A DNA stretch of 49,037 nt. Origin: Actinomycetes bacterium (GTDB lineage Bacteria; Actinomycetota; CALGFH01). The notes beneath the pieces are model-generated. The model was not told the origin of the DNA, searched no databases, and saw only the letters and a program-made list of their open reading frames with translations. Made by a program: the position numbers and the translations under genes. Below, piece after piece: positions 1,752 through 39,659 of this stretch. The stretch lies in contig DASYUT010000313.1 of NCBI GenBank assembly GCA_036000965.1, positions 1-49,037 of the forward strand, in the 5' to 3' direction. Every line of letters begins with the position of its first letter. Positions within the stretch are counted from its first letter, which is position 1.

Positions 1752-3181
1752 CCTCCGGTGGCCGCCGGCCAGTGGCGGCGGACCTCCTGCGTCTCCCGCA
1801 GCAGCGCCCGCAATGTCTGCAAGCCTCCCGTGATCCAGCCATGGGCGCGCGCCTGGACCAGGACGTTACCGAGCGCCGTCGCCTCGACCGGCCCGGCGAG
1901 CACCGGCAGGCGGCACGCGTCCGCGGTGAGCTGGCACAGCAGCCGGTTGCGGGCGCCACCCCCGACCAGGTGTACGACGTCGACCTCCTGCCCCGACAGG
2001 CGGGCGGCGTCGTGGACGGTTCGCGCAAAGGCGGCGGCCAGGCTGTCAAGGATGCAGCGCACCAGCTGGGCCTGGCCCTCGGGCTCTGGCTGACCGGTCC
2101 GCCGGCACGCCGCTTGGATCCTGGCCGGCATGTCGCCGGGTGGCAGGAAGGCCGGGGCGTCGGGGTCCACGACCGGCCCGCCCGCTGGCTGGTCGGCGGC
2201 CGCCCCGAGCAGCGTGGGCAGATCGGCCGGTTGCCCCGCTCGCTCCCAGGCCCGCAGCGACTCTTGGAGGAGCCAGAGGCCCATGACGTTACGCAGGTAG
2301 CGGATCCGGCCGTCGAGGCCGCCCTCATTGGTGAAGTTGGCCTTGCGGCTTTCCTCGGTCAGCACCGGACGCTCCAGCTCCACGCCGACCAGCGACCAGG
2401 TGCCGCAGGAGACGTAGGCGAAGCGCTCGCCGTCGGCTGGGACGCCGACCACCGCCGAGGCGGTGTCGTGTGAGCCGACCGCGGTGACGACCGCCGACCG
2501 GGGCAGCCCGGTTTCCTCGGCGACGTCCGAGCGCACGGGCCCGACCGCCTCCCCGGGCCGCCGCAGCGGCGTAAGCAGCTCCCGGCGGATCCCGGCCGCC
2601 CGCAGCACCTCAGCCGACCAGTTGCCCGTGCGAACGTCGAGCAGCCCCGTGGTGGACGCGTTGGTCTGTTCGGAGCCGGCGCGCCCGGTGAGCCAGTAGC
2701 CGAGCAGGTCGGGCAGCAGCAGCAGCGTCCTGGCCGCGTCCAGCTGCGGCGTGCCGGCGGCGGCGGCGAGCTGGTAGATGGTGTTGAACGGTAGGAACTG
2801 CAGCCCGGTGATCGCGTACAGGTCCTCGAATGGGATCTCGGCGTGGACCTTGTCGGCGGCTCCGGCGGTGCGGGAGTCCCGGTAGTGGTAGGGGTTGCCC
2901 AGCAAGGTGCCGGTCTCGTCCAGCAACCCGTAGTCGACGCCCCAGCCGTCAACGCCTACGCTGACGATCGGCTCGGCGTCGCCTGCGGCGGCCCTGAGAC
3001 CATGAAGGATCTCGCGGTACAGCCGCAGGATGTCCCAGTGCAGCCCGTCGGGCAGGCGCACCGGCTCGTTGGGGAAGCGGTGCGCCTCGTGGAGGTCCAG
3101 CTGCGCCGGACCGACCCGGCCAACCATGACGCGCCCGCTGGAGGCGCCCAGGTCGACGGCCGCATACACGCCCCCGTTCAC
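1748..3181 (-). CDS. rhaB: L-rhamnulokinase
   Basis: The product phosphorylates L-rhamnulose to L-rhamnulose-1-phosphate with ATP, the second cytoplasmic step of rhamnose breakdown. It is 477 residues, the usual length for the FGGY-kinase RhaB. The N-terminal ATP site reads AAVDLGASSGRV (residues 7-18), the sugar-binding stretch VGVDGWGVDYGLLD follows, VGSHDTASAV carries the expected catalytic aspartate, and LVGGGARNRLLCQ near residue 405 is the C-terminal adenosine motif. I start at the GTG at 3181 because homology begins there; the frame is open upstream but reads as the out-of-frame end of the aldolase gene. The ribosome site (AAGGGA) is weak, so coupling to the gene 37 bp upstream is likely. 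It is the last gene of the operon. Its stop codon sits inside a 29-bp repeat. Confidence 0.93.
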   Translation of the reverse strand: MNGGVYAAVDLGASSGRVMVGRVGPAQLDLHEAHRFPNEPVRLPDGLHWDILRLYREILHGLRAAAGDAEPIVSVGVDGWGVDYGLLDETGTLLGNPYHYRDSRTAGAADKVHAEIPFEDLYAITGLQFLPFNTIYQLAAAAGTPQLDAARTLLLLPDLLGYWLTGRAGSEQTNASTTGLLDVRTGNWSAEVLRAAGIRRELLTPLRRPGEAVGPVRSDVAEETGLPRSAVVTAVGSHDTASAVVGVPADGERFAYVSCGTWSLVGVELERPVLTEESRKANFTNEGGLDGRIRYLRNVMGLWLLQESLRAWERAGQPADLPTLLGAAADQPAGGPVVDPDAPAFLPPGDMPARIQAACRRTGQPEPEGQAQLVRCILDSLAAAFARTVHDAARLSGQEVDVVHLVGGGARNRLLCQLTADACRLPVLAGPVEATALGNVLVQARAHGWITGGLQTLRALLRETQEVRRHWPAATGG

Positions 3182-3218
3182 CGGGGCGTTCCCTTGGGGT
3201 CTCCCCGGCGCCACGGGG

Positions 3219-5264
3219 TCATCGCAGGAAGCCGGCGGCGACGCCGGCGTCCACCGGGACGTGCAGGCCGGTGGTGAGCGACAGGTCGCCGCCGACCAGC
3301 GCGACCACCGCGTCGGCGACGTGGGAGGGCAGCACCTCGCGCTTGAGCAGCGTCCGCTGCGCGTAGTACTCACCGAGCTCGTCTTCGGGAACGCCGTAGA
3401 CGGCGGCCCGCTGGGCGCCCCAGCCCTTGGCGAAGATCCCGGAGCCGCGGACCACGCCGTCGGGGTTGATCCCGTTCACGCGGATGCCGTGCTCTCCGAG
3501 CTCGGCGGCCAGGAGCCGGACCTGGTGGGCCTGGTCGGCCTTGGCCGCCCCGTAGGCGAGGTTGTCAGGGCCGGCGAACACCGCGTTCTTGCTGACGATG
3601 TAGACCAGGTCGCCGCCGAGTCCCTGCTCGACCATCACCTTGGCAGCCTCACGCGACACCAGGAACGAGCCTCTGGCCATGACGTCGTGCTGCAGGTCCC
3701 AGTCGCCGGTGGTGGTCTCAAGCAGCGGCTTGGAGACCGACAACCCGGCGTTGTTGACGGCCAGATCGACGCCGCCGAAGGCCAGCGTAGCCTGCCGGAA
3801 CGCCTCGGCCACCTGGTCCTCGTCGGTGACGTCGACGGTCGCCGCGACGGCCACGTCGGCGTCGCCGAGCTCGGCGGCCACCGTGCGGGCGTTGCCGGCG
3901 TCCAGGTCGGCCACGACCACGCAGGCGCCCTCGGCGGCCAGCCGCTGCGCGATCGCCCTGCCGATGCCGGACCCCGCCCCCGTCACCAGCGCGACCCGGG
4001 TCGCAAGGGGCTTCGGCTTGGGCATCCGCTCCAGCTTGGCCTCCTCCAGCGCCCAGTACTCGATGCGGAACTTCTCCGACTCCGAGATCGGGGCATAGGT
4101 CGAGACCGCCTCGGCGCCGCGCATCACGTTGATAGCGTTGACGTAGAACTCGCCGGCCACCCGGGCGGTCTGCTTGTCGCGGCCGAAGGAGAACATCCCA
4201 ACGCCGGGCACCAGCACGATCGCCGGGTCGGCGCCGCGCATGGGCGGGCTGTCGGGCTGCGCGTGGCGCTGGTAGTAGGCGCGGTAGTCCTCGCGGTAGG
4301 CGGCGTGCAGCTCCTTGAGTCGCCCCGTGACCTGTTCAAGGGGGGCGGTGGGGGGCAGGTCCAGCACCATCGGCCGGACCTTGGTGCGCAGGAAGTGGTC
4401 GGGGCAGGAGGTCCCAAGCGCGGCCAGGGCCAGGTGCTTCGCCCTGGCGACGAAGTCGAGCACCACCGCCGAGTCGGTGTAGTGGCCGACCTGGGGGGCG
4501 TCGGTGGACGCCAGGCCGCGCAGCACCGGGAACAGCGCCGCCGCGCGGGCGTGCCGTTCGCTCTCAGGTAGGGCTTGGTAACCGTCGACCACCGGCCCGA
4601 ACGGATCGGCCTTCCCGCGCTCGTCGAGGAACCGCTTGGCGGTGCGGATGATCTCCAGCGAGTTGGCCTCGCACGCCTCGGAGGTCGGGCCCCAGGCGGT
4701 GATGCCGTGGCCGCCGAGCACCACCCCGATCGCCTCGGGATGGGCCTGCTGGATGGCGGCGATGTCCAGGCCGAGCTGGAAGCCGGGCCGGCGCCAGGGC
4801 ACCCAGGCGACCCGGTCGCCGAAGCACTGCTTGGTCAACGCCTCCCCGTCGGCCGCACAGGCCAGCGCGATGCCGGCGTCGGGGTGGAGGTGGTCGACGT
4901 GCGCGGCGTCGACCAGGCCGTGCATGGCGGTGTCGATCGACGGGGCCGCGCCACCCTTGCCGTGCAGGCAGTAGTCGAACGCGACGACCATCTCGTCCTC
5001 CCGCTCGACCCCGGGGTAGACGTCCACGAGCGCCCGCAGGCGGTCCAGGCGCAGCACGGCCAGGCCATCTTCCACCAGGGTGCCCAGGTCACCGCCGGAG
5101 CCCTTGACCCACAACAGCTGGACCGGCCGCTGGGTGACCGGATCGGTCGTCTCGCCCTTCGCGGAGGTGTTGCCGCCGGCGTAGTTGGTGTTGCGCGGGT
5201 CGGAGCCCAGCCGGTTGGACCGCTCCAGCAGCGCCTGGACCTCGGCATGGGTAGGAGTGTTCAT
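3219..5264 (-). CDS. rhaEW: Bifunctional L-rhamnulose-1-phosphate aldolase / L-lactaldehyde dehydrogenase
   Basis: The 681-residue protein fuses two enzymes. Residues 1 to about 410 are a class II aldolase domain (NTNYAGGNTSAKG near the N-terminus, zinc-ligand stretch DHLHPDAG, and GGHGITAWG), which cleaves L-rhamnulose-1-phosphate to DHAP and L-lactaldehyde. Residues about 430-681 are a short-chain dehydrogenase with the nucleotide motif TGAGSGIG, the NNAG motif and the catalytic YGAAK, expected to oxidise lactaldehyde to lactate. This architecture matches the RhaEW/YuxG family known from Chloroflexus and Bacillus rhamnose pathways. The ATG at 5264 follows GGGGAGCG. The gene begins 7 bp after the rhaI stop, so the two are probably translated from one message. 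The frame extends upstream of this ATG, but only as a shadow of rhaI. Confidence 0.93.
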   Translation of the reverse strand: MNTPTHAEVQALLERSNRLGSDPRNTNYAGGNTSAKGETTDPVTQRPVQLLWVKGSGGDLGTLVEDGLAVLRLDRLRALVDVYPGVEREDEMVVAFDYCLHGKGGAAPSIDTAMHGLVDAAHVDHLHPDAGIALACAADGEALTKQCFGDRVAWVPWRRPGFQLGLDIAAIQQAHPEAIGVVLGGHGITAWGPTSEACEANSLEIIRTAKRFLDERGKADPFGPVVDGYQALPESERHARAAALFPVLRGLASTDAPQVGHYTDSAVVLDFVARAKHLALAALGTSCPDHFLRTKVRPMVLDLPPTAPLEQVTGRLKELHAAYREDYRAYYQRHAQPDSPPMRGADPAIVLVPGVGMFSFGRDKQTARVAGEFYVNAINVMRGAEAVSTYAPISESEKFRIEYWALEEAKLERMPKPKPLATRVALVTGAGSGIGRAIAQRLAAEGACVVVADLDAGNARTVAAELGDADVAVAATVDVTDEDQVAEAFRQATLAFGGVDLAVNNAGLSVSKPLLETTTGDWDLQHDVMARGSFLVSREAAKVMVEQGLGGDLVYIVSKNAVFAGPDNLAYGAAKADQAHQVRLLAAELGEHGIRVNGINPDGVVRGSGIFAKGWGAQRAAVYGVPEDELGEYYAQRTLLKREVLPSHVADAVVALVGGDLSLTTGLHVPVDAGVAAGFLR

Positions 5265-5271
5265 CTGAGTG

Positions 5272-6450
5272 TCACGCTCCCCACCCGGCCTGCTCGCCGC
5301 CGACGCGCTCGGCAACGGTCTTGTCGGCGTAGCCCGAACGCGCGTAGGCGGCAACCGGGTCAGGGTCGAGGCCGAGCTCCTGGCGCAGCTCGGCCAGGAG
5401 CGGGCGCACGTCGGTGTTGTAGGCGTCCATCAGCACCGCGTTGGCCCCGAGGACGTCGCCGGCCTGCTGCGCAGCCTCCAGTGCCCCGGTGTCGACCAGC
5501 AGCGCCTTTGCCGTGGCCTCTTGGACGTTCATCACCGAACGGATCTGGGCGGGGATCTTCGGCTCGATGTTGTGGCACTGGTCGAGCATGAACGCGATCC
5601 CAGCCTCCGGCGCGTAGCCGCCGCCCTGTACCACCTCGTGCATGATCCGGAACAACTGGAACGGGTCGGCCGACCCCACCATGAGGTCGTCGTCGGCGTA
5701 GAACCGGGAGTTGAAGTCGAACCCGCCGAGCTTGCCGGCCCGCAGCAGGAACGCCACGATCATCTCGATGTTGGTCCCTGGGGCGTGGTGGCCGGTGTCG
5801 ACCACCACCTGGGCGCGGTCGCCGAGCTGCAGGCAGTGAGCGTAGGCAGTGCCCCAGTCCGGCACGTCGGTGTGGTAGAAGGCCGGCTCGAACAGCTTGT
5901 ACTCCAGCAGCAGCCGCTGCTGCGACCCGAGCCCGTCGTAGGTGGCGGCCAGGGCCTCGGCCAACCGGTCCTGGCGGGCCCGGATGGAGTCCTGGCCGGG
6001 ATAGTTGGTGCCGTCGGCGAACCACAGCTTCAGGTCGCGCGAGCCGGTCGCGTCCATGACGTCGACGCATTCCAGCAGGTGGTCCAGGGCCTTGCGCCGC
6101 ACCCGGGGATCGGGGTTGCAGACGCTGCCGAGCTTGTAGTCGTCGTCCTGGAAGACGTTGGCGTTGATGGTGCCGATCCGCACCCCATGGTCGGCGGCGT
6201 GCTTGGCCAGGTCGGCATAGTCGTCGACGGCGTCCCAGGGGATGTGCAGGGCCACGCTGGGGGCCACGCCGGTGACGGCATGGACCTGGGCGGCGTCGGC
6301 GAGCTTCTCGTAGGGGTTGCGCGGCACCCCCGGCTGGCCGAACACCTTGAAGCGGGTGCCGGAGTTGCCGAACGCCCACGACGGGAGCTCGATCCGCTGC
6401 TGCCGCAGCGCGGCCTTCACGCTGGAATCGTCAGGTGTCGTCCTGGTCAT
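5272..6450 (-). CDS. rhaI: L-rhamnose isomerase (RhaI type)
   Basis: The product interconverts L-rhamnose and L-rhamnulose in the cytoplasm, the first catabolic step. At 392 residues it fits the Pseudomonas stutzeri-type isomerase rather than the longer E. coli RhaA. The TIM-barrel metal ligands appear in the expected order: EYKLFEPAFY, VVDTGHHAPG, GGFDFNSRFYADDDL, and the upstream LWFADGTNYPGQ stretch that binds sugar. The ATG at 6450 is preceded by GGAGGAGGTC. It is the first enzyme gene after the transporter block and sits 147 bp downstream of rhaS, with a strong hairpin in between, so enzyme and transporter levels can be set apart. It may also have its own promoter in that gap. Confidence 0.93.
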   Translation of the reverse strand: MTRTTPDDSSVKAALRQQRIELPSWAFGNSGTRFKVFGQPGVPRNPYEKLADAAQVHAVTGVAPSVALHIPWDAVDDYADLAKHAADHGVRIGTINANVFQDDDYKLGSVCNPDPRVRRKALDHLLECVDVMDATGSRDLKLWFADGTNYPGQDSIRARQDRLAEALAATYDGLGSQQRLLLEYKLFEPAFYHTDVPDWGTAYAHCLQLGDRAQVVVDTGHHAPGTNIEMIVAFLLRAGKLGGFDFNSRFYADDDLMVGSADPFQLFRIMHEVVQGGGYAPEAGIAFMLDQCHNIEPKIPAQIRSVMNVQEATAKALLVDTGALEAAQQAGDVLGANAVLMDAYNTDVRPLLAELRQELGLDPDPVAAYARSGYADKTVAERVGGEQAGWGA

Positions 6451-6551
6451 GGTAGATGGAAGACCTCCTCCAGCGGCCGCATCCGCTCGTCAGGACGCTG
6501 GCCGTCGAGCTCCTAGAAAAGTCGCTGTGTCACCACGTCACCTCGGGTGGG

Positions 6552-6594
6552 ACCGCCCCGGGACGCAGCGGTGCGTCCTGCGTCCCGGGGCGGT
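6552..6594 (-). terminator. 17-bp hairpin between rhaS and rhaI
   Basis: Bases 6552-6568 pair perfectly with 6578-6594, leaving a 9-nt loop. On the minus strand the hairpin begins 3 bases after the rhaS stop codon. There is no T-run. It is in the right place to be a partial terminator or an RNA 3'-end stabiliser that keeps the binding protein message more abundant than the enzyme message, as is known for other sugar ABC operons. Confidence 0.75.
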
Positions 6595-6597
6595 GCG

Positions 6598-7689
6598 CTA
6601 GAAGTCGAACTGGGCGATGTTCTGCTTGTCGAAGACCTGCGGCGGGCCGAGGAGCACCTCGCCGCCCTTGCCGACCTTGTAGTCATCCAGCTCTCCGGCC
6701 TTGAAGCTCTCGCCTTCCTTGCCGGTGATCTGACCGGACGCCAACGCGGCAGCCGCGTACGCGGCCAGGTAACCGAGCTTGCCCGGGTCCCACAGCTCGA
6801 ACGCCTGCACCGTGCCGTCCTCGACGAACTTGCGCATCTGGTTGGGCGTGCCCAGGCCGGTCAGGGCGACCTTGCCCTTGTAGTTCGACCCGCTCAGGTA
6901 GCGGGCGGCGGCGGCGATGCCCACCGTGGTCGGCGAGATGATCCCCTTGAGGTTGGGGTATGCCTGCAGCAGGCCCTGGGTCTGCTGGAACGAGTCCTGG
7001 TCGTCGTCGTTGCCGTAGGCGACCTTGACGAGTTTCATGTCCTTGTACTCGGGCTTCTTCAGCTCATCCTTCATGAACTTGATCCAGGTGTTCTGGTTGG
7101 TGGCGTTCGGCGTCGCCGACAGGATCGCGATCTCGCCGGAACTCTTGATCTGCTTGGCGAGCAGCTGCACCTCGCTGCGGCCGAGGTCCTCCGCGCTGGC
7201 CTGGTTGACGAAGACCTGCCGGCCCTCGGGTGCGGTGTCGGAGTCGAAGGTCACGACCTTGACGCCCTGCGACTGGGCCGCCTTCAAGGCCGGCACCACG
7301 GCATTGGGATCGTTGGCGGAGATGACGATCGCGTCCTGGCGCTGCTGGGCGAGGGTGTTGATGTACGAAACCTGCGACGACGCGCTGGCCTCGGACGGAC
7401 CCACCGCCTTGCCCTCGCCGCCGAACTCCTTGACCGCCGCCAGGCCGCCCGTGTTCGCCACGGTGAAGTACGGGTTGTTGAGCTGCTTGGGGAGGAAGGC
7501 GATCTTGAGGCCCTGCTTGATCTGAGCGTTCGGGTTGGCCTGGCCGGCGCTGGTGGCGGTTGCGCCGCCGCCCGAGGAGCTCTCCTTGGTCGTGCCGCCG
7601 CAGGCGGCCAGGACGAGGGTGCACGAGATGGCGAGGGCGACCGACGCCCACCGCCGGCGGAGGCGTCTCGCCGAAGGGGATGGTTGCAT
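6598..7689 (-). CDS. rhaS: Rhamnose ABC transporter substrate-binding lipoprotein
   Basis: This is the external sugar-binding component of the rhamnose importer. The 363-residue product has a twin-basic N-terminus, a hydrophobic stretch and the lipobox LVLAAC with Cys30 as the lipidated residue, then a Ser/Gly/Thr linker and a periplasmic-binding-protein fold of the type 1 (RbsB-like) group: IAFLPKQLNNPYF, the DAIVISANDPNAVVPAL segment, VVTFDSDTAPEGR, and GTPNQMRKFVEDGTV. The ATG at 7689 follows AGAAAGGA. The next upstream gene, a permease, ends 95 bp away, and a short tandem repeat lies in that gap. A hairpin follows its stop codon. Substrate assignment rests on the linked rhamnose enzymes. 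Confidence 0.9.
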   Translation of the reverse strand: MQPSPSARRLRRRWASVALAISCTLVLAACGGTTKESSSGGGATATSAGQANPNAQIKQGLKIAFLPKQLNNPYFTVANTGGLAAVKEFGGEGKAVGPSEASASSQVSYINTLAQQRQDAIVISANDPNAVVPALKAAQSQGVKVVTFDSDTAPEGRQVFVNQASAEDLGRSEVQLLAKQIKSSGEIAILSATPNATNQNTWIKFMKDELKKPEYKDMKLVKVAYGNDDDQDSFQQTQGLLQAYPNLKGIISPTTVGIAAAARYLSGSNYKGKVALTGLGTPNQMRKFVEDGTVQAFELWDPGKLGYLAAYAAAALASGQITGKEGESFKAGELDDYKVGKGGEVLLGPPQVFDKQNIAQFDF

Positions 7690-7734
7690 GGTCCGGTGTC
7701 CTTTCTTCCGGCGTCGCGGGCGCGACGGTGGCTT

Positions 7735-7777
7735 GACGGGCGAGGGAGTGGACGGGCGAGGGAGTGGACGGGCGAGG
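7735..7777. repeat. 16-bp tandem repeat, 2.7 copies
   Basis: The unit GACGGGCGAGGGAGTG occurs at 7735-7750 and 7751-7766, with a partial third copy to 7777. It fills part of the gap between the second permease gene and rhaS. Confidence 0.85.
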
Positions 7778-7784
7778 CGGCTGG

Positions 7785-8837
7785 TCAACTGGCCCCGGCT
7801 GGCTCCGCGGGAGCGGCCGGTGACGCCGACCGGCGGCGGCTGACGGCCCGGCCGACCGCCGCGATGGCATTGGGCGCGATGACGCTGCCGATGAGCAGCA
7901 GCCCGGTCACCACGTTGAGGATGTCGTTGGAGACGTCGTTCAGGATCAGGGCGCTGCGGATGCCGCCAAGAAGGAACACGGCCGCCACCACGCCGCCGAG
8001 GGTCCCCTTGCCGCCGAAGATCGAGACGCCTCCGAGCAGGACGGCGGCGACCACGGCGAGCTCGAGACCGGCCCCGTTGTCGGCTCGCGCGCTCGCGAAG
8101 CGCAGGGTGAAGACGATGCCGGCCAGCCCGGACATCGCGCCGCTGAGCACATACAGGATGAACTTGGTCCGCTTGACGCGGATGCCGGAGAAAAACGCCG
8201 CCTCCTGGTTGGCGCCGATGGCGAACACCGACCGCCCGAACGGCGTGGCGTGGAGCACGACCCCGAAGAGGGCGGCCAGCACGGCGAAGAAGGCGATCGG
8301 GTAGGGGATGTGCGTGCCCGGCACCGGGGTGGTGCCGTACCTGGTGTAGCTGGCCGGGAAGTCGGCGACCGCCTGGTCGCCGAGGATGACGAAGGCGAGC
8401 CCGCGGTACAGCGCCAGGGTCCCGATGGTCACCGCGAGCGAGGGCAGGCCGAGTCGGGTGACGAAGAAGCCGTTGAGCGCTCCCGCCAGCGCGCCGGCCA
8501 CGAGCACGGTCGGGAAGATGAGCTCCAGCGGCCAGCCGGCGTTCCACAGCCAGCCCAGCAGCGCGCTGGTCAGGCCGAGGATGGAGGCGATCGACAGGTC
8601 GATCTCGCCGGCGATGATGATCATGGTCAGCGGCAGCGCCATCAGCGCGATCTCGCCGACGTCGAGGCCGAGGTAGAACAGGTTCGCGCCGGTCAGGAAG
8701 CCGGGCGAGGTCTGCTCGCCGACCAGCCCGACGGCTACCAGGAGCAGGACGAGCGCGGTCTCCCAGCGCAGCAGTCGCCGCAGCCCTGGCCGCTGGTCCT
8801 GCCGGGTCGACCTGGCCGCGGGGGTGTCAGCTGCCAC
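7785..8837 (-). CDS. rhaQ: Rhamnose ABC transporter permease, second subunit
   Basis: This integral membrane subunit of the sugar importer forms the pore with RhaP. The 350-residue product belongs to the RbsC/BPD_transp_2 group and has about eight to ten hydrophobic segments, the cytoplasmic coupling motif FAIGANQEAAFFSGI, and LLGGVSIFGGKGTLGG near the C-terminus. I start at the GTG at 8837 because AAAGGAGC lies 7 bases upstream; the frame is open for 19 more codons inside the upstream gene but without support. It overlaps the end of rhaP by 11 bases, indicating translational coupling. The order ATPase, permease, permease, binding protein resembles the rhizobial rhaSTPQ cluster, so the P and Q names are by analogy. 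Confidence 0.88.
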   Translation of the reverse strand: MAADTPAARSTRQDQRPGLRRLLRWETALVLLLVAVGLVGEQTSPGFLTGANLFYLGLDVGEIALMALPLTMIIIAGEIDLSIASILGLTSALLGWLWNAGWPLELIFPTVLVAGALAGALNGFFVTRLGLPSLAVTIGTLALYRGLAFVILGDQAVADFPASYTRYGTTPVPGTHIPYPIAFFAVLAALFGVVLHATPFGRSVFAIGANQEAAFFSGIRVKRTKFILYVLSGAMSGLAGIVFTLRFASARADNGAGLELAVVAAVLLGGVSIFGGKGTLGGVVAAVFLLGGIRSALILNDVSNDILNVVTGLLLIGSVIAPNAIAAVGRAVSRRRSASPAAPAEPAGAS

Positions 8838-31864: not shown

Positions 31865-34800
31865 CGGCTGGGGCTGGCCGAAGTAGTAGCCCTGGCCGAT
31901 GTCGCAGCCCAGGTCTCGCAGCCGGGCCACCTGCTCGGCGGTCTCGACTCCCTCGGCCACCGCCCGCAGGTCCAGGTTGTGGGCGAGGTTGACCACCGCG
32001 GTGACGATCGCTGCGTCCTCGGGGTCGCCGAGCAACCCGTCCACGAAGGCCCGGTCGACCTTGACCTTGTCCACCGGGAAGCGCCTGAGGTAGGTGAGCG
32101 AGGAGTAGCCGGTGCCGAAGTCGTCGATCGACAGGCTGACGCCGAGCGCCTTCAGCTCGGCCAGGGCGGCGTAGGTGGACTCGGCGTCCTCCATCAGCAC
32201 GCTCTCGGTGATCTCGAGGTAGATCGAGGCCGGGTCGGCGCCGGTCTCGGCCAGGATGTCGGCGACCAGGCCGGCCAGCTTGGGTCGGGCGAACTGGCGG
32301 GCCGACAGGTTGATGCTCATGTTGAGAGGCCTGCCGCCCGGGCCGGCGGTGCGCCAGCGCTCGGCCTGGCGGCACGCCTCGCGCAGCACGTAGGTGCCGA
32401 TCGGCACGATCAGGCCGGTCTCCTCCGCCAACCCGATGAACTCCTTGGGCTCGAGCAGGCCGCGGGCCGGGTGCTCCCAGCGGACCAGCGCCTCCACGCC
32501 TTCCAGCTCGCCGCTGTCGAGCGACACGTTGGGCTGGTAGAAGACCCGGAACTCGCCTCGCTCGACCGCCCGGTACATGGAGCTGTGCATGGCCAGCCGG
32601 CGCCTGGCCCGCGCGCGCATGGCCTGGTCGAAGACCTCGCGCCGGTTGCCGCCGCGGGCCTTGGCCCGGTACATGGCGGCGTCGGCGTTCTCCATCAGCG
32701 CCTCGGGCCGGAAGTGGGGCCCGCTGCCCAGCGCGATGCCGATGCTCATGGTCACGAAGACCTCGGCCTCGTCGAGCAGGAACGGCTGGGCCACCGCCTC
32801 GGCGACCCGCTCGGCGATGGCCAGGGCGTGGGCCTCGTCGGCGATGCCCTCGCACAAGATCGTGAACTCGTCGCCGCCGAAGCGGGCGACCGTGTCCCCG
32901 GGCCTGATGACCTGCTGCAGGCGCTGGGCGAGGGCGATCAGCAGCTGGTTCCCGGCCGCGTGGCCGAGCGAGTCGTTGATGACCTTGAAGCGGTCGAGGT
33001 CGAGGAAGAGCACGGCCACCGAGGCCCGGCTGCGCTGGGTCCGGGCGAGCGCCATGGTGGCCCGGTCCAGGAAGCAGAGCCGGTTGGGCAGGCCGGTCAG
33101 CGCGTCGTGGGCGGCCTGGTAGGCGAGCCTGGCCTGGGCCTGGGTGCGCTCGATGGCGATGTCGGCCAGGTGTGCGGCCAGCTCGAGGAGCTGCCAGTCC
33201 ACCGGCTCCGGGCTGCGCGGCGTCTCGTGGTAGAGGGTGAGGGTGCCGAGCACCCGGGCCGCGTCCGAGGCCATGATCGGCACCGCCCAGGCCGCCCGGA
33301 CCCCGAGCGCCCTGGCTGCCTCGCGGGTCCGGGCCCAGTTGGGGTGGGTGGTCACGTCGGGCACGATCACCGGGGTCTGGCGGTGGACGGCCGCGCCGCT
33401 CGCGCCGGCCTGCGGGCCGACCACCAGCCCGTCGGCCTTGCCGAGCCCCTCGCTGCACAGGTTCGGGGCGGCCGCCACGCCGAGCCTGCCACCGTCCTCG
33501 TCGAGCAGCAGGATCGCGCAGCGCGCGCGCTCGGCCTCGGTCTCGATCACCCGGGCCAGGACTGCCAGGGTGTCCGACAGCGGGGCGTCCCTGGCGATCA
33601 GGTCGAGCACGTGGGCCTGGCCGGCCAGCAGGGCCTCGGCCCGTTTGCGCTCGGTCACGTCGCGACAGTTGAACACCACCCCGCCGACCGACGGGTCCTC
33701 GAGCAGGTTGTTGGCCAGCGTCTCGACGTGCCGCCAGCGGTCGTCAGCGGCCAGGATGCGGAACTCGAACGTCTGGTTCGGCTCGTGCTGGCCGAGGTGG
33801 TCGCTGAAGCGGGTGCGGGCCTCCTTGACGTCGTCCGGGTGGACCAGGTCGAACAGGTTCTGCCCGATCCGCGTCCCACCCCGGTAGCCGAGCATCCGGG
33901 AGAACGCCGGGCTCGCGTAGGTGATCCCACCGCCCACGTCGAGCACGATCACCATGTGCGAGGAGTTCTGCACCAGCGCCCGGAAGCGGGCCTCGGAGTC
34001 GCGCAGGGCCCGCTCGGCCCGGCGCAGCTCGAACTCCTTGGTGATGTCGCGCGAGGTCAGGATGAGCCGCCGGTAGCGGCTGCCTGCCGCCGGCACGCGC
34101 GCGTAGGCGCAGGAGATCCAGCACGGCTGGCCGTCCGGGCTGAGCACCTCGAGCACCGACGGCAGGATGCAGGGGTCGCTCGCCCAGCGGTCGACCCGCA
34201 CCTCCCGGCCGTCGGTGTCCCTGGGCCGGAGCCGCGACAGCCCCAGGGTACCGACCACGTCGCCGGCCGCGTAGCCGGTGATCCGCTCGAACCCGGGGTT
34301 CCAGCTCGTCACCCTGCCGTCCGGGTCGATGGTGGCGATCCCGTCGGAGGTGTTGGAGAAGATCTCCGACAGCTTGGTCCGCTCCTCGATGATGGCCTCG
34401 AGCAGCTCGCCCTTCTGCAGGGCGCCGGCGACCTCCCCGGCCAGCGTGTCGAGCACGGCGAGCTCGCCCTCCTCGAAGCCCTCGAGCCCGGTCCGGTTGT
34501 AGGTGACCAGCACGCCGGCGGTCTGGCCGCCGGACTGGACCGGAGCGGCCAGGCAGTTGCGCCAGCCGTCGGCCAGCAGCAGCTCCACCATGGCGCTGTC
34601 GCTGGCGCCCGGGCCGACCCGCTTCGCCTCCTCGATCGCGAGCAGCGCGGTGGCCAGCGTGGCACTGCCCATCGGCTCTTGAAACGTGAAGTAGGCGGGG
34701 TTACCGGCGCTCGAGCGGTGGACGGTGCGGGCCCGGCCGGCGACCACCACCAGGTCGGCCGCTTCCGACTCGAAGCACCTGCGCACCTCGAGCAGGAACT

Positions 34801-35635
34801 GCGGGATCGCCTCCCTGGGATCCATCGGCACCCCAAGCGCGTGCATCGCCCGCTGCATGCCTCGGAGGCGGGCACGATCGGCGCGGACCGCGGCGAAGGC
34901 CCGGTTGGCGCGGTGCAGGATCCCCAGAAGCACCATGAACAGCGGGGTTACGGCCGGCTCCCAGGCGTGGGCGGCGACGAAGAGCACGCCGAAGGCGAGG
35001 TTGACAGCGGTCACCAGCAGGCAGGGGATGATGCCCGGCGCGGTCGTGGCGAGGACCTGGCGAAGTGGCTGCTGCCGGTTCAGGTACACGGCGACGGTGA
35101 ACGCCAGGTAGTTGACCAGCCAGCCGGCGAGCATGGCGAGGAGCAGCCCGGGGATGTCGCCGACGGCGGGTGTGGCGCTCGTGCGCATGGAGGTGAACAC
35201 CAGGCTCGCCACCGCCGCGGTGCACATCCACTGGGCCACGTTGAAGCAGGTGACCACCGCGGGAACGCGGAGCAGCCTCTCCGAGACTGCCTTGGCCACC
35301 CCGACCACGAGCACCGCCCCGAGCCCGGGAAGCACGAAGACCAGCGGCGTGAGGACCGCCTCGAAGAGGTCGAACGAGTTGGCCTCGTCGTCGTGGACGA
35401 AACGACCGCCCCGGAGCTGGTAACGAAGCTCCAGGGTGCCCGCGAGGACGAGCGCACCGAGAAGGGTGCCGACCGTGACGACGGACAGCGGCGTGGGCGC
35501 CGGGACGACGGAGGGCGCGGCGGCGGCCACAGCGACGCCGGCCACCGCCAGCAGCGCTGAGAGGAATGGAATCGACCGGGGAACGGCGCCCTTGACCGGC
35601 GCCGTTCCCCGGGGCTCCTGCTCGGATGCGGTCAA
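31817..35635 (-). CDS. Membrane GAF/PAS/PAS/GAF/GGDEF/EAL cyclic-di-GMP protein
   Basis: The 1272-residue protein combines six to eight N-terminal membrane spans (residues 20-245), GAF (265-410), two PAS domains (420-530 and 545-660), a second GAF (675-825), GGDEF (840-1000) and EAL (1012-1260). GGDEF is intact at 920-924 with an RPGD inhibitory site at 911-914. EAL is intact (GVEALVRWEHP, Glu1048) with SIDDFGTGYSSL and LEITES. Both synthesis and breakdown of c-di-GMP are therefore possible. The start appears to be TTG at 35635, five bases after GGGAG and only three after the protease stop, implying coupling. A 13-bp hairpin at codons 9-20 complicates this choice. Confidence 0.88.
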   Translation of the reverse strand: MTASEQEPRGTAPVKGAVPRSIPFLSALLAVAGVAVAAAAPSVVPAPTPLSVVTVGTLLGALVLAGTLELRYQLRGGRFVHDDEANSFDLFEAVLTPLVFVLPGLGAVLVVGVAKAVSERLLRVPAVVTCFNVAQWMCTAAVASLVFTSMRTSATPAVGDIPGLLLAMLAGWLVNYLAFTVAVYLNRQQPLRQVLATTAPGIIPCLLVTAVNLAFGVLFVAAHAWEPAVTPLFMVLLGILHRANRAFAAVRADRARLRGMQRAMHALGVPMDPREAIPQFLLEVRRCFESEAADLVVVAGRARTVHRSSAGNPAYFTFQEPMGSATLATALLAIEEAKRVGPGASDSAMVELLLADGWRNCLAAPVQSGGQTAGVLVTYNRTGLEGFEEGELAVLDTLAGEVAGALQKGELLEAIIEERTKLSEIFSNTSDGIATIDPDGRVTSWNPGFERITGYAAGDVVGTLGLSRLRPRDTDGREVRVDRWASDPCILPSVLEVLSPDGQPCWISCAYARVPAAGSRYRRLILTSRDITKEFELRRAERALRDSEARFRALVQNSSHMVIVLDVGGGITYASPAFSRMLGYRGGTRIGQNLFDLVHPDDVKEARTRFSDHLGQHEPNQTFEFRILAADDRWRHVETLANNLLEDPSVGGVVFNCRDVTERKRAEALLAGQAHVLDLIARDAPLSDTLAVLARVIETEAERARCAILLLDEDGGRLGVAAAPNLCSEGLGKADGLVVGPQAGASGAAVHRQTPVIVPDVTTHPNWARTREAARALGVRAAWAVPIMASDAARVLGTLTLYHETPRSPEPVDWQLLELAAHLADIAIERTQAQARLAYQAAHDALTGLPNRLCFLDRATMALARTQRSRASVAVLFLDLDRFKVINDSLGHAAGNQLLIALAQRLQQVIRPGDTVARFGGDEFTILCEGIADEAHALAIAERVAEAVAQPFLLDEAEVFVTMSIGIALGSGPHFRPEALMENADAAMYRAKARGGNRREVFDQAMRARARRRLAMHSSMYRAVERGEFRVFYQPNVSLDSGELEGVEALVRWEHPARGLLEPKEFIGLAEETGLIVPIGTYVLREACRQAERWRTAGPGGRPLNMSINLSARQFARPKLAGLVADILAETGADPASIYLEITESVLMEDAESTYAALAELKALGVSLSIDDFGTGYSSLTYLRRFPVDKVKVDRAFVDGLLGDPEDAAIVTAVVNLAHNLDLRAVAEGVETAEQVARLRDLGCDIGQGYYFGQPQPPEAMAPGLGLPAGVP
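35578..35610 (-). promoter_or_regulatory. 13-bp perfect hairpin at the protease/GGDEF-EAL junction
   Basis: GGGGAACGGCGCC at 35578-35590 pairs exactly with GGCGCCGTTCCCC at 35598-35610, with a 7-base loop. On the minus strand it starts 28 bases after the protease stop, where a terminator would sit, yet it falls inside the first codons of the next gene if that gene starts at the TTG at 35635. It could be a terminator or attenuator between the two genes. Confidence 0.75.
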
Positions 35636-35638
35636 CCG

Positions 35639-37378
35639 CTACTCCCAGGCGCCGTACCAGGTCGAGCCGTACCAGCAGTTGCCGTACCAGCCATCGGCCT
35701 GGCGCCAGTTGCTCCCACCCCAGTCGTTGCCCGCCCAGCTGAGCCGGTACCAGCGGGAGGTCTGCCAGCCGGTCGAGTACCAGGTGCCGCTCGTCCACCC
35801 ACCGGTGGTGTAGCCGAACGGGTCCCAGAGCAGGAGCTGGGCGGTCAGCAGGCCGCCGAGCACGAGACCCAGCGTGCCGCCGATCAGGTCGTCGGTCTTG
35901 ACCCGCACGGTGCCGCGGGAGAGATCGAGCGGGCCGAGCCCGCTGGAGCGCGCGAGGCCCTGGTTGGCCGTACCCGGCGGGGCCGCGAAGGCGGCGGCCT
36001 GGGCGTTCACCAGCCCGGTGCCGACGACCATCGGGTCGGCCGAGACGGTGGCCTGGGTGGTGGCCTTGAGCGCGTGCTTGAGCCGGTCCGGGGTCATGTC
36101 CGGGTTGGCCTGCAACATCAGCGCGGCGACGCCGGACACCACCCCGGCCGACATCGAGGTGCCGCTGCCCTTGCGGTAGGCGCCGTCGACGTAGACGGGG
36201 AACTGGGTGTCGATCGCGCTCCCTGGTGCGCGCAGCGAGATGACGTGCCCGCCGGGGGCGGTGACATCGGGCTTGCCCAGCCCGTCGGCCGCGGTCGGCC
36301 CACGCGAGGAGAAGTCAGGCAGCAGGTCGTCGCCCAAGCCCGTCGTCCCGTTGTCGTCGATCGCGCCGACGGTGATCACGAAGGGGTCGTCGCCTGGCTT
36401 GGAGATGCTGCGCGGGTCGGGCCCGCGGTTGCTGGCCGACACGACCACGGCGATGCCGGCGTCCCAGGCCCGCTCGACCGCGTAGTTCAGGGGGTCGACC
36501 GTGTAGGACTGGGTGGAGTCGGTCCCCAGGGACAGGTTGAGGACCCCGATGCCGTAGCGGTCCTTGAACGACACCACCCACTGGATGGCGGCGAGCACGT
36601 TGCTGACGTCGGCGGCGCCGTCCCGGCCGGCGATCTTGAGCGACAGCACGCGAGCCCCTGGCGCGGCGCCCTTCCACTTGCCTGCGGACGAGGCGCCGTT
36701 CCCGGCGATGGTGCCGGCGATGAAGGTGCCGTGCCCGTAGGAGTCGGCGCAGCTGGACTCGCCGGACAGGTTCACGCAGGGTGACGCCTGGCCGGTGAGG
36801 TCGTCGGTGACCTGCACGATCCGGCCGTGCAGGTCGGGCACGTCGGCGACGCCCGTGTCCACGACCGCCACGGTAACGCCGCTGCCGGTGACGCCCGCCT
36901 GCCACACCGCGTCGGCCCGCACGACCTTGGGGTAGACCGAGCGCGGCGTGGACGGCGGCGTTGCTGCCAGCTTGGCCTGGACGCGCATGCGGCCGTCGCG
37001 CGAGACGGCCCGCACGCCTCGCGTGCGAGCCAGCTCCGGCACGGCGCTGGCGGGCAGGGTGGCCGCGAACCCGTGGACGACCGGGAGCGGCCGGGTGACG
37101 CGGCCGCCGAGCCGGGCCACCGCGCGCTCGGGGGCGAAGTCGCCGCCGGCCTGCTTCTGCACGATCACCCGGACGGCGCCGCGCGCCGCCGCGAGCAGCG
37201 GGTCCACCACCGCCGTGGTGGCCGCAGCGCCGACCCCGGCCGCAGCGCCGACCCCGGCCGCAGCGCCGCCAGGGCTGCCGCCCCCCGGGCTGGGCACGGC
37301 GGCCAGGACGAGCAGCCCGGCGAGAACGAACGCGATCACGGCGGCGAGCCGCGACGATGATGGGCGATGGACATCCAC
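35639..37378 (-). CDS. Secreted S8 (subtilisin) serine peptidase with Trp-periodic tail
   Basis: The 579-residue protein has a signal peptide (AAVIAFVLAGLLVLAAVPS), an inhibitor_I9-like propeptide region (about 60-145) and a subtilisin domain with Asp174 (VVDTG), His216 (YGHGT), Asn317 (SASNRG) and Ser408 (GTSMSAG). After about residue 460 a hydrophobic stretch (LIGGTLGLVLGGLLTAQLLL) may anchor it in the membrane. The last 52 residues carry 11 tryptophans, nearly all spaced by five. The GTG at 37378 follows AGGAGGT. It is followed, three bases after its stop, by the c-di-GMP gene. An 18-bp tandem repeat in the N-terminal region encodes AAAGVG-type repeats. Confidence 0.9.
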   Translation of the reverse strand: MDVHRPSSSRLAAVIAFVLAGLLVLAAVPSPGGGSPGGAAAGVGAAAGVGAAATTAVVDPLLAAARGAVRVIVQKQAGGDFAPERAVARLGGRVTRPLPVVHGFAATLPASAVPELARTRGVRAVSRDGRMRVQAKLAATPPSTPRSVYPKVVRADAVWQAGVTGSGVTVAVVDTGVADVPDLHGRIVQVTDDLTGQASPCVNLSGESSCADSYGHGTFIAGTIAGNGASSAGKWKGAAPGARVLSLKIAGRDGAADVSNVLAAIQWVVSFKDRYGIGVLNLSLGTDSTQSYTVDPLNYAVERAWDAGIAVVVSASNRGPDPRSISKPGDDPFVITVGAIDDNGTTGLGDDLLPDFSSRGPTAADGLGKPDVTAPGGHVISLRAPGSAIDTQFPVYVDGAYRKGSGTSMSAGVVSGVAALMLQANPDMTPDRLKHALKATTQATVSADPMVVGTGLVNAQAAAFAAPPGTANQGLARSSGLGPLDLSRGTVRVKTDDLIGGTLGLVLGGLLTAQLLLWDPFGYTTGGWTSGTWYSTGWQTSRWYRLSWAGNDWGGSNWRQADGWYGNCWYGSTWYGAWE

Positions 37379-37866: not shown

Positions 37867-38553
37867 TCAGCGCTGGAAGGCGCGGCTTCCGTTCAGGTCG
37901 GGGGTGAGCGTGCGCGGCGCGAGGTCGCGCTGCATCGCGAAGGTCGCCGCTTCGAGCTTCGAGTGCATCTCGAGCTTCTGCAGGATGTTCTGCACGTGGG
38001 TGCGGACCGTGTGGGGGCTGATGAACAGCTCGCGGCCGATGCGCGCGTTGTTCCAGCCGCGGCCGAGCAGGGCGAGCACCTCGCGCTCCCGAGGCGACAG
38101 CCGGTTCAGCGGCGAGTCGGTGGCCCGCTCGCCGAGGTCGAGCAGGCGCCGGAACAGCTCCGGCAGCATAGCCCTGGGGACCACGCCCTCGCCGTCGAGC
38201 GCGGCCTGGACCGCGCGCAGCACCGTCCGGGTGCCGCTCTTCTTGCCCACCACACCGACCGCGCCCGACCGGATGGCGGCCAGCAGCAGCTCGAGGTCGA
38301 TCTCCTGGGTCAGCAGCATGACCCTGGTCTCGGGCAGCTGGTCGAGGACGGTCTCGACCAGCGTCGGTCGCGAGACCAGCGCGAGGTCGGCGTCGACCAC
38401 GACCAGGTCGGGCCGCAGCCGCCCGACCGCGCCCACGACCTGTGCGGCCGTCGAGCCAGAGCCCACGACGTCGTTGCGCCCGTCGCGCTCGATCAGCGCC
38501 TCAAGCGCCTCGTTGAACAGCGGCTGGCAGTCCGCCAGGAAAACCCGAGCCAT
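37867..38553 (-). CDS. LuxR/NarL-family response regulator, atypical receiver
   Basis: The 228-residue protein has a receiver-like domain with Asp54 in VVVDADL as the likely phosphoacceptor and Lys in GVVGKKSG, but the acidic pocket is reduced to ADCQP (one Asp, with Cys in the second position). The C-terminal LuxR helix-turn-helix runs from LSPREREVLALLGRG to TVRTHVQNILQKLEMHSKLEA. The HTH is very close to that of the response regulator at 39656-40339. The ATG at 38553 follows GGAGGG. It is divergent from the histidine kinase gene over 425 bp. It may be phosphorylated by that kinase or act without phosphorylation. Confidence 0.88.
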   Translation of the reverse strand: MARVFLADCQPLFNEALEALIERDGRNDVVGSGSTAAQVVGAVGRLRPDLVVVDADLALVSRPTLVETVLDQLPETRVMLLTQEIDLELLLAAIRSGAVGVVGKKSGTRTVLRAVQAALDGEGVVPRAMLPELFRRLLDLGERATDSPLNRLSPREREVLALLGRGWNNARIGRELFISPHTVRTHVQNILQKLEMHSKLEAATFAMQRDLAPRTLTPDLNGSRAFQR

Positions 38554-38978
38554 CGTCCCTCCATACCGCCTGCCCACCGCGACGCCGCCCGTGACGGCCG
38601 CGCGGGCCTGCGGCGCTAAGCGTGGCGCATCCCCTGACCACACCCGTACGACAGCCGCAGTACGTAGGGGTACGGCAGCTAGGCGAAAACCGCGAAGGGG
38701 GATCATCAGGGCCAGGCGCGGGGAAGCGCCCAACCCTCTTTTCAGGCTGAAGGAAGCCCCGTCCGCAGTCTCCCCCGAGAGCGTCCCTGCGATGGACCAG
38801 GGAGGGCAAGTAGTCAGTTCTCCGGATGAGTGGCTTGCTGCAACTGCCGTACCCTAATGCCGACATCGCGATCCGACGGCCGAAAGCGGCTACAAGGGTC
38901 GCCGTCACCGCCGCACGACCATGGGTACCGGTCCCCGCGTACTCGCTGCACGCGGAGCCCATCGGAAGGTGTGCCGTG
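38554..38978. other. Divergent region between LuxR regulator and kinase genes
   Basis: These 425 bases should contain both divergent promoters. GTACG occurs three times in 30 bases (near 38646, 38660 and 38670), the first as the palindrome CGTACG, and could be a binding site for the adjacent LuxR proteins. The kinase frame is open from 38826, but I see no ribosome site for that start. Confidence 0.45.
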
Positions 38979-39659
38979 ATGCACTGGAATGATGACGACC
39001 ACGCGGTAGAGCCGCTGGCACTGCTCGCCCACGAGGTCATGCGCCGCCTGGCCGCTGTCCGCGTTCTCACCGAGGCCATCCAGCTGACCGCGGGCAGGGG
39101 CGACGATCCGCGCCCGCTCGCCGAGCGGCTCGCCGGTGAGGTCGGCGACCTCGAGCAGCTCGGCCGGCACGTGCTCGACGCCCATCGCCAGGAGCGGCGC
39201 GACGACGCCGACGTCCTGGCCATCGCCGCCCAGGCCGCCGAGACGGTCCGCGCCGGCGCGCCGGCCGTCGTGCGGGTCGAGGGCGCCGGGCCGCTGTGGG
39301 CCAGGACCAACGCGGTCCTGCTCCGCCAGGCCCTCGAGAACCTGATCGAGAACGCCCACCGCCACGGCGGCGGCACTCCGGTCGAGGTGGTCGTCCGGCG
39401 CTCGTCCGGCGGCGTCGAGGTCCTGGTGATGGACCGGGGTCCGGGGATGGGCAAGGCCGGGCTCCGGCGCGACGGCAACGGGCTTGGCCTCGCCTTGGTG
39501 CGCCGCTTCGTCGAGGAGACGGGCAGCGGCATGCTGACGGCCAGCCGGGCCGGGGGCGGCACCGTCGTCCGCCTCGAGCTGCCGGCCGCGGGCCGGCAGG
39601 CGGTGGGGTCGCGCGCGAACGCGCTGGCGACCGCGGAGAGCGAGCGGGAGGCGGGATGA
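38979..39659 (+). CDS. Soluble histidine kinase core
   Basis: The 226-residue protein is a histidine kinase without an obvious sensor domain. The likely phosphorylated His is in LLAHEVMRRLAAVRVL near residue 20; the ATPase domain shows the N box (LENLIENAHRHGG), G1 (MDRGPGMG) and G2 (GNGLGLALVRRFVE) with a final GTVVRLELPA strand. It should pass phosphate to the response regulator whose ATG overlaps its stop (ATGA, four bases). I chose the ATG at 38979; a GTG directly before it shares the same ribosome site (GGAAGGT). Input may come from a partner protein, or from the 51 extra codons upstream if the frame is used from 38826. Confidence 0.85.
   Translation: MHWNDDDHAVEPLALLAHEVMRRLAAVRVLTEAIQLTAGRGDDPRPLAERLAGEVGDLEQLGRHVLDAHRQERRDDADVLAIAAQAAETVRAGAPAVVRVEGAGPLWARTNAVLLRQALENLIENAHRHGGGTPVEVVVRRSSGGVEVLVMDRGPGMGKAGLRRDGNGLGLALVRRFVEETGSGMLTASRAGGGTVVRLELPAAGRQAVGSRANALATAESEREAG

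Follow-up and report, generated by a model that had tools for sequence, protein, structure and literature searches.

The stretch of DNA analysed here, referred to as the window, comprises 49,037 nucleotides of an actinomycetal contig (DASYUT010000313.1) and carries on its reverse strand a gene for a subtilisin-like serine protease of the S8 family, followed by a gene for a large membrane receptor (Table 1). The protease matched PF00082 in a profile search with an E value of 5.7e-48 and 164.1 bits, above the curated cut-off of 21.8, and in an alignment of 17 sequences H216 and S408 are invariant and D174 is nearly so, residues which we take to be the catalytic His, Ser and Asp of S8 subtilases. 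Its structural model contains a helix at residues 9-25, predicted with low confidence, in the region of the putative signal peptide, and the propeptide-like region was modelled by AlphaFold2 with block pLDDT values of 59-92 over residues 51-130, the best Foldseek matches of this domain being subtilisin proforms such as 3afg. The window subtilase is presumably secreted. The receptor was found by profile search to consist of an N-terminal membrane region followed by PAS, GAF, GGDEF and EAL domains. Upstream of the subtilase lie genes for a LuxR-type response regulator, a homolog of which also occurs within the locus of a relative (L056), and for a divergently oriented HATPase_c protein.

Table 1. 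Coordinates and supporting evidence for features at the protease-receptor locus of the window.
Feature	Position	Strand	Evidence or remarks
S8 subtilase gene, 579 aa	35639..37378	-	GTG start; stop TAG 35639-35641; PF00082
Probable signal peptide, residues 1-30	37289..37378	-	By eye, RLAAVIAFVLAGLLVLAAVPSPGG
Propeptide-like domain, approximately residues 57-127	36998..37210	-	Predicted structure and Foldseek
Peptidase domain, residues 165-443	36050..36886	-	PF00082
Conserved linker, residues 470-527	35798..35971	-	GSLDLSRGxVxV..GxLTAQLLLW(N/D)P; 17-sequence alignment
Tryptophan-pentad tail, residues 528-579, end WYGAWE	35642..35797	-	Translation and alignment
Partner receptor gene, 1272 aa	31817..35635	-	TTG start (assumed); three bases past the peptidase stop
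Membrane domain, ECF S-component-like predicted fold	34850..35578	-	AlphaFold2 and VIA-align
PAS region, two stretches, residues 426-660	33656..34360	-	PF08448, PF00989
GGDEF domain, residues 841-998	32642..33115	-	PF00990, E 3.3e-47; GGDEF motif read in translation
EAL domain, residues 1020-1255	31871..32578	-	PF00563, E 9.5e-75
LuxR-type response regulator	37867..38733	-	Upstream of the subtilase
HATPase_c protein	38826..39659	+	Divergent

Tryptophan arrays and the lineage that carries them

Eleven tryptophans occur in the last 52 residues of the protease (residues 528-579), with successive spacings of 5, 5, 5, 5, 5, 5, 6, 5, 5 and 4, just as the initial annotation of this DNA had reported; the end of the tail needed a small correction, as the 52 residues together with the stop codon occupy 35639-35797, two bases beyond the 35795 given there. 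Eight of the ten steps are of exactly five residues; when the 52 residues were shuffled 200,000 times, no arrangement reached this number (the best had six), which rules out chance periodicity of the tryptophans. The stop-to-stop frame contains five tryptophans in the 528 positions that precede the tail, and an extra tryptophan, W518, stands within the conserved linker exactly ten residues ahead of the first one of the tail. The tail itself contains eight complete five-residue units, no two of which are alike. Relatives do not retain the possible membrane segment that had been suggested ahead of the tail: the pre-tail consensus of the 17-row alignment reads DPxxTVVxGxLTAQLLLWNP and was judged by reading to be too short and too polar for such a segment, and the AlphaFold2 model places two short strands there with low confidence.

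Of 60 genomes searched with the subtilase, 36 gave a match, one of them being the genome of the window; 22 loci were taken from named records. Other proteins with W-x4 periodic tails, which the initial annotation had advised looking for, were indeed found, and 69 tailed proteins were compared. Among 16 relatives, agreement with the window averages 85% at its 12 tryptophans as against 34% at the other 50 tail positions. The units of near relatives (WYGSS, WYGSR, WHGNS, WQGSK, WYGAN) keep the tryptophan spacing constant while the other residues vary, and their tails mostly end in WYG[AG]W plus one residue, often acidic. Across the 69 tailed proteins, the number of complete pentads per array lies between 4 and 37, with a median of 12, and what stays constant in a pentad is the tryptophan together with the W+2 position, which is mostly Gly (58%) or Ala (14%), with Ser, Gly, Thr, Ala, Arg, Asn and Asp found between the evenly spaced tryptophans. 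Arrays tolerate breaks of 4, 9, 12, 14, 18 and 19 residues, and some from Chloroflexota have a period of six (VWTGGY in L062, WTGGQT in L236) or of seven (WAGSYST in L238-L242 and L245).

The WYGSS units of L049 and L126 use serine codons of both the TCN and the AGY type, and because these are mixed the repeats are not merely recent copies of DNA, which points to selection at the level of the protein. Recent expansion of a DNA repeat is thus rejected as a full explanation, both by the mixed serine codons of these two loci and by the all-different units of the window, and there is strong support for the regular tryptophan spacing being a real, selected feature. A search of 296 genomes for the underlying DNA pattern, TGG every 15 bases, was noisy: when its loci (L066-L125) were judged on frames with six evenly spaced tryptophans, subtilase motifs were present in at least eight, and the remaining frames appeared by eye to be wrong frames of repetitive DNA.

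Variation in the layout of these genes was also seen. Extra C-terminal sequence follows the tryptophan array in L158, L164 and L026, showing that the array need not end the protein, and two tailed subtilases are present in each of four loci (L216, at 4229-7415, L139, L157 and L200), suggesting local duplication. The genome of the window itself encodes a second tailed subtilase (L005, on C301), which has a longer double unit, WEIKHWGGLGDDPSG, and is followed by a receptor that resembles a histidine kinase by eye.

With respect to the origin of the tail, a tree of 128 peptidase domains, in which tail labels were set by hand, places all 92 tailed rows within one clade of 98 rows (SH-aLRT 99) that spans Actinomycetota and Chloroflexota. 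Its untailed rows are L233 and L235 (tryptophan-rich, irregular) and L244 (a short tail with one tryptophan), and L017 (cut), L232 (masked) and L140 (no array found) were set aside as unreadable; L057, L017 and L129 are near-copies among the loci. A smaller tree built beforehand from 101 rows, with labels assigned by a script, had given a clade of 75, of which 69 were tailed, with a support of 97. Because all tailed rows fall in one clade, the tail is regarded as an old character of a single peptidase lineage, and several independent origins are not supported.

The partner receptor and its pairing with tailed subtilases

The membrane domain of the receptor was modelled with AlphaFold2 from the window and 16 relatives, resulting in a pLDDT of 89.3, a pTM of 0.86 and a structure composed mostly of long helices. 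VIA-align ranked RibU (5kbw) first, with Z 13.7 and rmsd 3.2 over 164 residues, although helical models may reach Z values of about 13 without kinship; the best 18 rows are all ECF-transporter chains with Z of at least 10.2, MreD comes next at 8.3, and no other row exceeds 5.7. The assignment of an S-component-like fold was made because all top rows agree and because the values drop sharply below them. Foldseek returned no match for this domain at E 0.001 (best 3.9e-3), and every one of its top twelve rows is an ECF-transporter chain or an S component, some being titled just 'transporter'; the matched ECF-transporter chains are presumably S components. In the predicted structure, the six helices of the S-component fold are accompanied by one additional helix at the N terminus, and such a domain should have an outward-facing pocket. 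PF07694 was matched neither by the window receptor (E 0.001) nor by ten relatives (E 0.01). MASE9 (PF20972) scored 21.7 bits over the membrane region of the window receptor, below its curated cut-off of 24.3, and at E 0.01 it scored 17.8 and 17.9 bits in two of the ten relatives and was absent from the listing for the other eight. The output domains of these ten receptors comprise six histidine kinases, three GGDEF-EAL proteins and one SpoIIE protein.

To define how often the two genes occur together, the first 65 subtilase loci were scored as 64 rows, and the receptor domain was sought within 400 bases downstream. The receptor adjoins 29 of the 29 actinomycetal tailed loci with enough DNA (30 rows, the window being present twice). 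Among 20 untailed subtilases followed by 600 bases or more, three of them archaeal (L063-L065), it adjoins none. As the receptor profile was built from 24 membrane domains of these same loci, the count does not test the receptor family independently. Each of the 24 domains still matches the profile at E 3.2e-21 or better when it is left out. Eleven rows with too little DNA were omitted, as was the tailed L021, after which no DNA follows. Five of the 30 paired rows (L018, L044, L045, L047 and L048) have 10-12 tryptophans in interrupted arrays and were missed by the run-length rule, which recognized the remaining 25 as tailed. Two further tailed rows, both from L062, were first scored as lacking a receptor and were later resolved as two tandem pairs. 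Among relatives available in culture, Motilibacter deserti E257 (L054) has both genes of the pair.

Starting from the receptor, the profile matched 119 of 296 genomes, and the flanks of the best 80 matches, taken after removal of ten used in the profile, were examined. A subtilase recognized by a catalytic-domain model that excludes the tail lies directly upstream in 34 of the 80, and all 34 are tailed by the criterion of at least five tryptophan steps of exactly five; L171, which has a short tryptophan-rich frame upstream with no catalytic-domain match, was not counted among them. The tailed subtilase is located downstream in L133 and L135 (the same as L215 and L216) and is divergent in L148 (the same as L217), and the pairing therefore survives changes of order and orientation. 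No tailed subtilase was seen alongside 43 of the 80 matches, among which five are at contig starts and one (L146) has a subtilase cut by the contig end. L140 has a subtilase without a tryptophan array beside its receptor. Besides the matches on C313 and C301, the genome of the window has five more (C265, C320, C131, C136 and C53), and no subtilase was found in the examined flanks of the first four of these.

For Chloroflexota, the tandem pairs of L062 (Anaerolinea) each consist of a tailed subtilase with a hexad array (3018-4514 and 6675-8204) and a membrane histidine kinase. The membrane domains of these two kinases align with the receptor profile over most of the domain length but with weak scores, 29 and 27 bits at composition-bias values of 14 and 16. 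Outside L062, seven receptor matches were obtained from four further genomes of 151. Six of the seven matches have an upstream subtilase with a tryptophan-rich tail (WDNIT, WDNVL, WESLT and similar; the arrays of L209 and L212 are irregular), and the seventh, L210, has none. From the subtilase side, the 151 genomes yielded 30 loci, of which 22 are tailed, and a receptor accompanies 10 of these 22 as compared with none of seven untailed ones, a contrast that is not significant alone (Fisher p 0.06); all tests of this kind on the pairing overstate the independence of the rows. In L227 and L228 the receptor lies about 0.75 kb from the tailed subtilase, in L232 a receptor is present and the array is masked, and three of the 10 (L219, L220 and L231) coincide with L214, L211 and L062, which already figure in the counts above. 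Twelve of the 22 tailed subtilases, five of them near-copies, have no receptor in the 0.8-1.5 kb examined downstream, so that a tail can occur where no receptor lies beside it. L223 presents a tailed subtilase followed, in the receptor's place, by what reads as a class III nucleotide cyclase.

Pairing is thus near-complete in the actinomycetal subtilases examined and partial in Chloroflexota. It may have been inherited rather than repeatedly selected, because the tailed subtilases are one clade. A functional pairing of protease and receptor in Actinomycetota is considered highly probable. The two proteins appear to belong to a single, hitherto undescribed signalling unit. No paper on a tryptophan-tailed subtilase, or on its pairing with a membrane receptor, was noticed among the literature matches listed, as judged from titles and the beginnings of abstracts, which does not establish its absence in print.

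Structure and possible role of the tail

AlphaFold2 predicted residues 485-579 with pLDDT below 50, block values being 22-39 from residue 491 onward, a result that is not decisive because the alignment of 17 rows is shallow. The window tail had no match at E 10 either to Pfam or to PDB sequences. A stacked beta-helix, as proposed in the initial annotation, would turn the tail into a rigid aromatic ladder, that is, a tryptophan version of the single-stranded pentapeptide-repeat fold, and both the period of five and the Gly at W+2 resemble the pentapeptide-repeat pattern. In its favour, the array of L213 (Chloroflexota, WDNVT) matches Pentapeptide_4 (PF13599) weakly, at E 3.5e-5; this match, however, scores 24.2 bits, under the curated cut-off of 38, the array of L049 reaches only 11.9 bits against a pentapeptide-repeat profile with a cut-off of 27, and the predicted lack of structure, the missing Pfam and PDB matches of the window tail, the periods of five, six and seven within one clade and the breaks of 4-19 residues all leave the beta-helix unsupported and improbable. 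Predicted disorder and loss of the spacing in homologs, the two findings that had been named as jointly telling against the initial proposal, did not go together: disorder is predicted, and the conserved spacing was not lost. Low pLDDT and the presence of three periods in one clade speak for a multivalent array that is flexible, rather than for a fixed solenoid.

Available information is best accommodated by a two-part extracellular sensing unit in which the tail is a flexible docking element, an explanation to which, as a whole, we assign a probability of roughly 45%. The first part would be the secreted subtilisin-like protease with its propeptide and C-terminal tryptophan pentads, and the second the membrane receptor, in which an S-component-like domain would connect to PAS, GAF and c-di-GMP domains in the cytoplasm. 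Regularly placed tryptophan side chains on a spacer rich in Gly, Ser and Thr could serve as multivalent contacts that hold the docked protease at the outer face of the membrane or directly on the receptor, and proteolysis, or occupancy by the protease, might then alter the receptor and its output. The tail would be on the same side of the membrane as the presumed pocket of the receptor. Docking on the receptor or membrane as the specific job of the tail is put forward tentatively, and the direction of signalling and the ligand are likewise conjectural.

It may alternatively be argued that the tail anchors the protease to the wall or to glycans, its tryptophan rings stacking on sugars of the cell wall or exopolysaccharide, and that the receptor is merely a regulatory neighbour. 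Regularly placed tryptophans accompanied by Tyr, Gly and Ser suit stacking on sugars, some tailed subtilases of Chloroflexota have no receptor beside them, and the window partner has GGDEF and EAL domains, matrix production often being under c-di-GMP control. Such anchoring is nonetheless doubtful, as the window tail matches no Pfam model even at E 10, and as tails of this type occur in two phyla and the receptor neighbour is often conserved.

As a disordered segment of stickers and spacers, the tail could enable the protease to self-associate or condense outside the cell, in line with the low predicted order and with the Ser, Gly, Thr, Ala, Arg, Asn and Asp residues between even tryptophans. 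This accounts neither for the pairing with the receptor nor for the WYG[AG]W end that most of the closest relatives conserve, and we view it as improbable too. Even less probable is that the tail is a signal store, from which proteolysis releases tryptophan-containing fragments into the outward pocket of the receptor, thus forming a self-contained peptide-signalling cassette; the commonest pentad represents less than a quarter of the copies in 13 of the 69 arrays, and the complete units of the window all differ, which argues against it.

The significance of the tail is that it marks out an old lineage of proteases, many of which are encoded next to S-component-like receptors. A conserved, presumably secreted enzyme partner with a simple, mutable tail offers a direct handle on such a receptor, and the module, which was seen in two phyla and is linked to outputs of the c-di-GMP, histidine kinase and phosphatase types, would extend the known modes of bacterial sensing by a pairing of protease and receptor. 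Furthermore, a tail in which tryptophan is the near-sole constant represents a clean case for determining how regular aromatic spacing works.

Comparison with known systems

The window protein has the propeptide, fold and catalytic residues of S8 subtilases such as pro-Tk-SP (3afg), from which it differs by a tryptophan array that lies outside the PF00082 match and is covered by no Pfam model. Mycosins (TIGR03921) are the best NCBIfam match of its peptidase domain, and membership of this family is rejected because the score, 139.6 bits, falls far below the cut-off of 278.75. Pentapeptide repeat proteins (PF13599 and relatives) share the five-residue period with the window tail, in which, unlike in these proteins, the repeated large residue is tryptophan and no profile is matched. 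On the receptor side, MASE9 (PF20972) is a weak match over the same membrane region, under its cut-off.

Receptors with an S-component fold have already been described, namely the 5TMR-LYT sensor histidine kinases (PF07694), and those of Gram-positive bacteria are reported almost only from Bacillota (Partipilo and Slotboom 2024, PMC11109136). The words peptidase and protease have no occurrences in PMC11109136. According to this source, 5TMR-LYT receptors combine an extra N-terminal helix, six S-component core helices and cytoplasmic signalling domains, as is predicted for the receptor studied here. In contrast to them, the present receptors have no PF07694 match and are found in Actinomycetota and Chloroflexota, their outputs include GGDEF-EAL and SpoIIE domains, and a tryptophan-tailed subtilase is often encoded alongside.
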